Shown here one piece after another: positions 17,615-38,552 of a DNA stretch of 39,430 nt (the first letter of the stretch is position 1; every line of letters starts with the position of its first letter). The notes beneath the pieces are model-generated. The model made no database searches. It saw only the letters and a program-made list of their open reading frames with translations, and was not told where the DNA came from. A program made the translations under genes and the position numbers. Source of the DNA: Desulfovulcanus ferrireducens (GTDB lineage: Bacteria; Desulfobacterota; Desulfovibrionia; Desulfovibrionales; Desulfonatronovibrionaceae); the NCBI RefSeq assembly GCF_018704065.1, contig NZ_JAGUQP010000006.1, positions 62,532 to 101,961 on the forward strand, written 5' to 3'.

Positions 17615-17936
17615 TACGTACCTTGCTCTTTATCACGCATCAGGTTGATCTAACCCATGAACTCTAGCTGTCTTTCTCCATATCAAAAAGCTTAGACATC
17701 ATCAGGTCAAACGTTAAACAGATTTACTTTTAACAATACATACCCACTACTGCATAGTCACCTTTTTATTCTAGATACTCAAGTCTCCGCGGTAAAAAGT
17801 TAAAACATAAACCGCCATCCGGTATAACCAGTTTGAGGCTGAAATTTTCTTTTACCTAAATTCTAGCGAGAGCTTAAAATTTATCGCCCTACTCTAACTT
17901 TTGCCAACCTTTTTCTCTCCAATATATTCATCTTAA
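17615..17936. other. Non-coding spacer between pgsA and the copy A repeat
   Basis: I see no ORF, RNA gene or strong hairpin in these 322 bases. The promoter of pgsA must lie at its left end. Confidence 0.4.
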
Positions 17937-18105
17937 GAGTTTGTGGCCAACCCCCATTTTGACTACCAGATTAGAAATCCCGGTTTCTTGAATGCATTGC
18001 AAAGGACTGGGTAAGCCATCTTGAGCTTAGCTTGCGGATAAGCAGAGCATAGGGGGACAAAGCTAAATATCTGGGACTCTTTGCCATAACTATCTATAGT
18101 TTAAA

Positions 18106-18235
18106 TTGAGCGATTTTTTGCAGCTCAAACTTCAAAATTGCTTCGCTGCCCTCGCAATGACAGGAGCGAGATTGTCATTGCGAGGGCAGCGAAGCTGTCC
18201 GTGGCAATCTCACCCATTGAGCGAAAATCGCTCAA
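18106..18235. repeat. Nested palindromic repeat with 23-bp perfect arms
   Basis: The outer arms TTGAGCGAT/ATCGCTCAA bracket an inner perfect inverted repeat of 23 bp (18140-18162, GCTTCGCTGCCCTCGCAATG and on, with complement at 18173-18195; loop 10). The ATTGCGAGGGCAGCGAAGC core resembles a dispersed repeat I recall from many bacterial genomes. It lies inside copy A. Confidence 0.7.
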
Positions 18236-18306
18236 CTTGGGTATAATTAAAAAATTATTCGTTTATCAAAAATAACCCATTATGCTCTACCCGCAAGCAA
18301 ACTTTT

Positions 18307-18349
18307 TACCCCGTTGAATCCAGCGAAGCGGGATTATTCAACTGGGGTA
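18307..18349. repeat. Short hairpin insert, TACCCCGTTGAAT type
   Basis: TACCCCGTTGAAT and ATTCAACTGGGGTA pair around a short loop. The same insert occupies the equivalent position in copy D (38410-38465) but is absent from copies B and C. Confidence 0.65.
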
Positions 18350-18415
18350 GTTGGATCCAGGCATTTGCACCAGCATGAAAGAAATCAGGATTGAAAAAAT
18401 TATGAAAAATTGTCC

Positions 18416-18703
18416 CCTAGATCCGTGAAAATTAACTCAACAACGATTCCTGTAACAATACGGGGCCTTTGGAAAACAGCGAAAACTGTCTGACCGAGTT
18501 AGGCAGACTTAATTAAAATCTTTTTAAATCGTTAGCTCCAAAATTTGCTTAAAAACCTGAAAATATAATACCCCAAAAATCCAACGAATCGTGTTAAAAT
18601 TTTAATTTAGGCTGCCTTCGAGGGAGTTTTTTCGCCTGTTTGACAAAAGTTCCGGATTGCTAATTGTCAATAGACAAAATTTACTCACTTTCACGGATTC
18701 AGG
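18416..18703. mobile_element. 288-bp MITE-like element inserted in copy A
   Basis: The ends CCTAGATCCGTGAAA and TTTCACGGATTCAGG are 15-bp inverted repeats with two mismatches. They are flanked by a perfect 6-bp direct repeat TTGTCC (18410-18415 and 18704-18709) that splits the sequence continuous in copy F. No ORF of note; probably a non-autonomous derivative of an IS whose transposase is elsewhere. Confidence 0.75.
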
Positions 18704-18771
18704 TTGTCCTCTTAAGTAAGGTTTGGCCACAGACTCTTAACTAAATTAACCAATCGATAAGCGGTGTGACT

Positions 18772-19780: not shown

Positions 19781-19879
19781 AAGTCTGGGGCCAACCCTCA
19801 TTTTGACTACCAGATTAGAAATCAGGATTGAGAAAATTATGAAAAATTATCCTCTTAAGTAAGGTTTGGCCACAGCCTC
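19781..19879. mobile_element. Palindromic element, copy F (internally deleted)
   Basis: Both ends of the family are joined directly: AAGTCTGGGGCCAACCC on the left and GTTTGGCCACAGCCTC on the right. The junction AGATTAGAAATC/AGGATTGAG is where the left arm GAAATC meets the right arm GAAATC, so the roughly 200 internal bases were probably lost by recombination between these short repeats. Confidence 0.7.
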
Positions 19880-33935: not shown

Positions 33936-34251
33936 GAGTCTGTGGCCAAACCTCATTTTGACCGCTGATTGAAAGTCTTGGTTTCTGTAATGCATTACAA
34001 ACGGCTTGGGTAACCCAATCTTAACGAAGCTTGTGGATAAGCAGAGCATCGGGATGAATGAGCTAAATATTTTGCGACATTAACCATAACTATCGATAAT
34101 TAAATGAACTTTTGTTTACCCAAAATATCCCATTATGCTTTGCCCGCAAGCAAGTTTTAGATGGGTCCAAGACTTTGTACCAGCATGAAAGAAACCAAGA
34201 CTAGAATAAACCATAGAAATTAAGTTGATAAAAAGGTTCGGCCACAAGCTC
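33936..34251. mobile_element. Palindromic MITE-like element, copy C
   Basis: The 316-bp copy is flanked by TATT on both sides (33932-33935 and 34252-34255). Left end GAGTCTGTGGCCAAACC, right end GGTTCGGCCACAAGCTC. AGTCTTGGTTTCT in the left arm pairs perfectly with AGAAACCAAGACT in the right. Internal GCTTGTGGATAAGCAGAGCA pairs with TGCTTTGCCCGCAAGC. No ORF. It lies between the zinc-ribbon gene and the end of gpmI. Confidence 0.8.
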
Positions 34252-37875: not shown

Positions 37876-38187
37876 ATGATCGACAAAACAGCTATTATCC
37901 CGACCGTCCTAGAAAAACTAAAAAAACTGCCCATTGGGCACTGTATTGACCTGCGCACCTATAAACGCAACCGCTCGGTCGTTATAGTCAAAAAGGAAGA
38001 GGATGAGTATCTGGTTATTGAAAACGGATATTTTCAGGAAGAGTTTGTGGTTGGCTTAAGCAAGTTAAAAAAGCTCTTAAAAACCCTGCTAAAAAAAGAA
38101 TTCCCCCGCAGTAATAAAATTAGACTCTATAACCTGGGAGAATACAATAAGGAGCAGCTGGCAAAGACAAATTGGAAAAAACTCTAG
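37876..38187 (+). CDS. Uncharacterised 103-residue protein
   Basis: The small basic protein is rich in Lys and Leu, with beta-rich middle segments (SVVIVKKEEDEYLVIENGYFQEEFVVGL) and a helical Lys-rich end. No recognised motif. ATG at 37876 has no strong ribosome-binding site. Its TAG stop shares its last base with the left terminal repeat of element copy D, so an insertion lies right at the 3' end and may have trimmed or set the C-terminus. Confidence 0.6.
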   Translation: MIDKTAIIPTVLEKLKKLPIGHCIDLRTYKRNRSVVIVKKEEDEYLVIENGYFQEEFVVGLSKLKKLLKTLLKKEFPRSNKIRLYNLGEYNKEQLAKTNWKKL

Positions 38188-38552
38188 AGTCTGTGGCCAA
38201 ACCCCATTTTAACCGCTGATTGAAAGTCTTGGTTTCTGACATACATTACAAACGGCTGGGGTAACCCAATCTTAGTGATGCTTGCGGAAAAACAGAGCAT
38301 CGGGATGAATGGGCTAAACATTTTGCGCTTTTGACCATAACTATCGATAATAAAAGAATATTCATTTATCCCAAATGCCCCATTATGCTCTGCCCGCAAG
38401 CAAACTTTTTACCCCGTTGAATCCAGCGAAGCGGGGCTGGCTTTTGCCAGTATTCAACTGGGGTAGATGGGTCCAAGTCTTTGTACCAGCATGAAAGAAA
38501 CCAAGACCGAAATAAACCTTGGAAATTAGGGTAAAGGTTCGACCACAGGCTC
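38187..38552. mobile_element. Palindromic MITE-like element, copy D
   Basis: The 366-bp copy has left end GAGTCTGTGGCCAAACCCC and right end GGTTCGACCACAGGCTC. Flanking four bases (TCTA and TACA) do not match, unlike copies A-C. It carries the hairpin insert TACCCCGTTGAAT...ATTCAACTGGGGTA at 38410-38465, shared with copy A. AGTCTTGGTTTCT pairs with AGAAACCAAGACC. No ORF. Confidence 0.8.

Follow-up and report, generated by a model that had tools for sequence, protein, structure and literature searches.

A putative IS1380-type MITE nested in a second repeat family carries a hairpin core that recurs between three kinds of ends

Bacterial repeats that fold into hairpins, among them NEMIS, Correia elements and REP sequences, are short, palindromic, mostly intergenic and present in many copies, and to our knowledge each comes with one kind of end. 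Miniature inverted-repeat transposable elements (MITEs) are usually viewed as empty shells of transposon ends; an autonomous partner in the same genome is usual for a MITE, though not strictly required, and partners can be lost. The element analysed here resembles NEMIS, Correia and REP repeats in being short, palindromic, multicopy and mostly intergenic, but it differs from them in that one hairpin with an asymmetric, conserved loop lies inside three kinds of ends. One folded core of this sort, conserved within differently ended jumping elements of related bacteria, is unusual and, if functional, would represent a new class of mobile structured element. For the IS1380 family, to which we assign the ends of the element, IS1247 is listed as 1672 bp long with a 5-bp duplication (PMC3281130). 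Literature searches on IS1380 with MITEs, on insertion sequences of Desulfonatronospira and on structured-RNA or nested MITEs returned nothing on this element.

The window, that is, the whole stretch of DNA analysed, comprises 39,430 nucleotides of Desulfovulcanus ferrireducens. A preliminary description had placed in it a 288-bp insertion flanked by the 6-bp duplication TTGTCC, and its coordinates proved exact:

18416..18703, + strand: 288-bp non-autonomous element (MITE) with IS1380-type ends
18410..18415, no strand: TTGTCC target duplication, left copy
18704..18709, no strand: TTGTCC target duplication, right copy
18416..18430, + strand: left terminal repeat CCTAGATCCGTGAAA
18689..18703, - strand: right terminal repeat, TTTCACGGATTCAGG on the + strand and CCTGAATCCGTGAAA on the - strand

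The inverted 15-bp ends are identical at 13 of 15 positions, and the element contains neither an open reading frame of at least 100 amino acids nor a transposase gene. Seven copies are present in the organism's own genome (G000, a 2.59 Mb draft in 60 contigs, 98.6% complete); the full-length ones are 86–97% identical to the window copy, and the six full copies measure 287–289 bp. They lie at C6:80947 (the window copy) and C6:6087, both flanked by TTGTCC, at C4:67923 (TTGTCC/TAGTCC), C23:9509 (TTAAGT), C18:40650 (TAGAAA) and C7:29750 (ATACAC), and on C36, where the copy is interrupted and no duplication is visible. Because there are seven copies in the genome and the 6-bp duplication is exact at four independent insertion sites (TTGTCC, TTAAGT, TAGAAA and ATACAC), the insertion signature is not a matter of chance. 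A 119-bp element at C3:58978-59096 shares these ends and is flanked by the 6-bp duplication CGCTTA.

We scanned for transposases of the DDE_Tnp_1_4 family (PF13701) and examined 20 loci, counting as matching those whose two ends each agree with the consensus end of the element at no fewer than 11 of the 15 positions. Such ends, with 11–14 of 15 positions matching per end, flank 12 of the 20 loci in related genomes, the other eight including loci that were masked or at contig ends and so lay beyond what the scan could assess. The 12 matching insertion sequences are 1652–1682 bp long and carry one IS1380 transposase gene; seven of them have exact 6- or 7-bp duplications (CTCTAT, TTCCAG, TTAATAC, TTACAA, ATACGA, TTAAAT and TTATTT), and all four proteins tested from matching elements pass the IS1380 model NF033539 of NCBIfam (243–297 bits, cut-off 180). 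As these transposase-bearing relatives share both the ends and the duplication length with the 288-bp element, sequence comparison assigns it as a putative IS1380-type MITE whose transposase partner appears to be missing from this draft. Ends that start with CC and 6-bp duplications are common to the two, whereas the insertion sequences carry a gene and lack the hairpin core, and the element is gene-less and core-bearing, with no partner found in its genome.

An insertion sequence with the same ends, a transposase and a 6-bp duplication, which the preliminary description had proposed as a check, was thus found in related genomes, but none was found in the element's own. No IS1380-type transposase turned up in the G000 draft, and a query with one IS1380 transposase gave matches in G008, G014 and G040 and none in G000, G001 and G016. 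C11:21947, considered as a local partner, was rejected: its PF13701 match reaches only 18.3 bits, below the cut-off, and it has internal stops and no element ends. The only other genome of the genus contains no copy of the element, phage and plasmid records gave no match to it, neither search pattern is present in viral contigs, and an exact 25-base stretch of the element had no match in the genome contigs collection. The draft of a related genome, G003, contains many core copies with GTAAC ends and no match to PF13701 or PF03050, a pattern suggesting that such elements persist after their transposases are gone, unless these are simply missing from the draft.

The insertion lies within one copy (A) of a second repeat family, represented in the window by these features among others:

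17937..18736, + strand: host repeat copy A, ends GAGTTTGTGGCCAACCC..GGTTTGGCCACAGACTC, interrupted by the 288-bp element
17933..17936, no strand: the host's own 4-bp duplication TTAA, left
18737..18740, no strand: the host's own 4-bp duplication TTAA, right
19781..19879, + strand: copy F, a short host repeat whose empty site reads TTATCC

That a second, unrelated mobile element sits in a copy of this palindromic family agrees with the first reading. Deletion of the insert had been said to restore the sequence of copy F, and continuity is indeed restored, with one base different: the empty site in copy F reads AAATTATCCTCTTAAG, and copy A without the insert and one repeat reads AAATTGTCCTCTTAAG. 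The host family is very abundant and MITE-like. Its ends, GAGTCTGTGGCCAAACC, have 211 matches in the genome at up to two mismatches, versus none for the reversed pattern, and 14 of 17 fetched copies have exact 4-bp duplications, 12 of these consisting of A/T only. Host copy lengths cluster near 100, 160, 317 and 485 bp, and members of the family occupy 17937-18736, 19781-19879, 23094 onwards, 33936-34251 and 38187-38552 in the window. A further palindromic module around CATTGCGAGGGCAGCGAAGCTGTCCGTGGCAATCTC, at 18100-18245, occurs in larger host copies and is absent from the 317-bp class, so that copy A seems nested at least three deep.

The 288-bp element occupies the identical base in two of the 17 fetched host copies as well as in the window copy, and the three carriers have different duplications of their own: TTAA in the window, ATTA at C6:6087 and CATA on C4. 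The window and C6:6087 hosts are close relatives with rare internal features in common, and the homology between the two loci starts and stops at the ends of the host repeat. As homology is confined to the host ends and the host duplications differ, transposition copied host and insert together. The left half of the C4 host belongs to another subtype, making this host a mosaic; recombination is therefore likely there, and the C4 copy probably moved in this way. The nested copies show one MITE travelling as the passenger of another. On C36, the interior of an element copy is joined directly to a host-family end, GGGGGTTGGCCACAGACTC (L014, G000:C36:3716-4513; this interrupted copy lacks about 100 bp in its middle). 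The two families are therefore nested in both directions, and the earlier proposal that the palindromic family predates the element holds for the host copy in the window only, the order on C36 being reversed.

The middle ~200 bp of the element forms a hairpin core, which, together with the single-insertion history of the TTGTCC copies set out below, adds to the first reading of the locus:

18453..18662, - strand: conserved hairpin core (covariance model R1, 195.8 bits, the window copy being in the training set)
18483..18499, + strand: A-arm loop motif AAACTGTCTGACCGAGT (reverse complement of ..CGGTCAGACAGTTT)
18615..18631, - strand: B-arm loop motif AAAAACTCCCTCGAAGG

When 199 genomes of the order were searched at the DNA level, eight others gave partial matches; each of these eight belongs to the same bacterial family, and every match falls in the middle of the element. 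Some of the matching sequences have the element's ends and others do not; in G005, a 408-bp element has two perfect matching ends and the duplication GAATAT. Model R1, built from 12 copies and run on 18 genomes of the family, matched 11 of them, with at least 84 rows each in G003 and G008 when both strands of one palindrome are counted, and 37 distinct core places in G008 among the matches listed. A two-motif pattern recovered 47 stretches in named genomes. Desulfonatronospira and Desulfonatronovibrio account for 44 of them, Desulfobacterales bacterium S7086C20 for two and Sulfurovum for one. With model R1 the pair from Desulfobacterales, neither of which was used in training, score 79 and 74 bits. 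The Sulfurovum stretch (L160) has the two motifs but no model match, and was set aside as coincidence.

To characterize the fold we used an alignment of 58 copies, chosen for spread and aligned blind to structure. Across its 50 pairs, 93.7% of cells are paired versus 81.8% in shuffles, a difference to be read with the structure having been derived from the same alignment, which favours paired cells, and with related copies not being independent. Both sides have changed in 35 of the 50 pairs, and the covariation score of 0.309 tops all 500 shuffles (shuffled 0.120; slid controls, maximum 0.112). Most changed pairs passed directly to another Watson–Crick pair. The stems vary widely, for example in L092, L103, L154 and L158, around a constant, asymmetric internal loop whose two sides, AAAAACTC.CTC and TCAGACAGTTT, hardly vary: all 58 copies have the B motif if allowed variants are counted, and TCAGACAGTTT is exact in 54. 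The Desulfobacterales copies keep the loop strands despite largely changed stems. Among the non-Watson–Crick pairs, those of the G-U type favour the A-first strand over the other by 66 to 32 or by 179 to 35, according to the strand fold used, a weak hint that folding takes place in the A-first strand (+ in the window).

Rfam 15 gave no match at the curated score for the window element or for the core stretches tried, and a TPP match in L077 falls beside the core; a tRNA, a terminator or another known RNA was rejected as the identity of the element or its core. Relative to neighbouring genes, as defined by crude open reading frame calls, 39 core loci comprise 10 flanked by genes that run in the core's own direction, 14 flanked by genes that run in the opposite one, six convergent, two divergent and seven overlapping a reading frame, and thus have no fixed orientation. 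Since the core copies also have no terminator and no convincing promoter, a cis-acting RNA role is without support.

To describe the surroundings of the core we classified 83 distinct copies chosen from 171 model-match rows, leaving out opposite-strand rows of one palindrome, contigs that appeared twice because two collections include them, and matches truncated at a contig end. Forty-five have GTAACTATTCACC-type ends on both sides, 20 have IS1380-type ends, two have CGGTTGAAGC, nine have one recognizable end and seven have none. An exact 8-bp duplication is present at 20 of the 45 GTAACTATTCACC-ended copies and an exact 6-bp one at eight of the 20 IS1380-ended copies, with the window and C6:6087 copies representing one insertion event; no duplication is visible at the two CGGTTGAAGC-ended copies. 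Among 38 GTAACTATTCACC-ended copies, 29 match at seven or more of eight positions versus a mean of 0.9 with right flanks shuffled, in a test that is mildly favourable in that the 38 of 45 were chosen after end classification (L115, L116, L117, one copy in L130, L145, one in L150 and L153 were left out). The core is absent from the 10 IS1380 insertion sequence loci tested, at E up to 1.

We liken the GTAACTATTCACC ends to IS66, whose ends start with GTAA and whose insertions make 8-bp duplications. The 8-bp duplications of the GTAACTATTCACC-ended copies are indeed found again in the IS66 elements of G008, but those of the latter with ends found terminate in GTAAGCGTCCA, not GTAACTATTCACC. G008 has 16 PF03050 matches, two of them fragments, and for a second group of its PF03050 elements ends were not found. 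The G008 IS66 elements with ends found were rejected as partners of the GTAAC ends on account of their different ends.

At a probability of roughly 85%, we favour the explanation that the 288-bp element is an IS1380-ended MITE that was moved in trans and spread with its host repeat, with the hairpin core as cargo. The enzyme that moved it was, we infer from sequence, an IS1380 transposase; supplied in trans, it would have recognized the 15-bp ends and inserted the element into a copy of the host repeat, duplicating 6 bp. The host repeat, with the element aboard, would then have transposed to at least one further site, making 4-bp duplications, and the inserted piece probably also moved by recombination, giving the mosaic C4 host. 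The three TTGTCC copies are, on this account, a single insertion that subsequently spread with the host repeat. Three independent insertions into a preferred target at the same host site would have had ample opportunity, as an uninterrupted TTGTCC site is kept in nine of 15 passenger-free host copies fetched, yet all three copies share orientation and base, the other copies of the element have unrelated targets, and the rare features common to the window and C6:6087 hosts, with homology ending at the host ends, make such a coincidence very improbable.

Between the ends, the ~200-bp hairpin would have been carried as cargo and kept by compensatory changes around its nearly invariant loop; we read the core in this way because its copies have no fixed gene direction or terminator and because the C3 element, which is too short to hold it, exists without it. 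A part in the transposition machinery, for example as an extended transposase binding site, would fit the 67 of 83 core copies that lie between two recognizable ends of one kind, but it is unlikely, given that the same core occurs in three end kinds with 6-bp, 8-bp and no visible duplications, that IS1380 insertion sequences do without it and that the C3 element has the ends and its CGCTTA duplication with no room for a core. Less easily dismissed, if still doubtful, is the view that the core is the old inner part of one MITE lineage whose ends were swapped by recombination and whose arms inter-convert, with no function: Watson–Crick changes, which arm conversion could also yield, outnumber G-T intermediates, the copies show no orientation bias, and elements of all three end kinds are similar in size, mostly about 250–290 bp. 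Arm conversion should, however, remove the asymmetry, whereas each of the loop's two dissimilar strands hardly varies, and the loop persists even in the stem-diverged Desulfobacterales copies. The likeliest explanation of the conserved fold is selection on the hairpin itself, as a folded strand of RNA or single-stranded DNA. We also entertain, tentatively and at somewhat less than even odds, that the ~200-nt hairpin is an independent structured module of RNA or single-stranded DNA, selfish or useful, for which at least three unrelated end systems serve as interchangeable vehicles and which would in this way have reached dozens of copies per genome among sulfate reducers belonging to two orders.

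Single ends of the element, noted on inspection by eye, lie at C12:61008, C25:26460, C9:78781 and C12:44366 in the same genome. On its contig C23, two short CCTGAATCCGTGAAT-ended elements of 205 and about 191 bp (L016, 3418-3622 and 5880-6070), with no clear duplications, flank a 751-residue reading frame that is presumably isocitrate dehydrogenase. In G006 (contig C101), core copies of two different subtypes are found no more than 450 bp apart (L089, 1090-1294 and 1501-1702).
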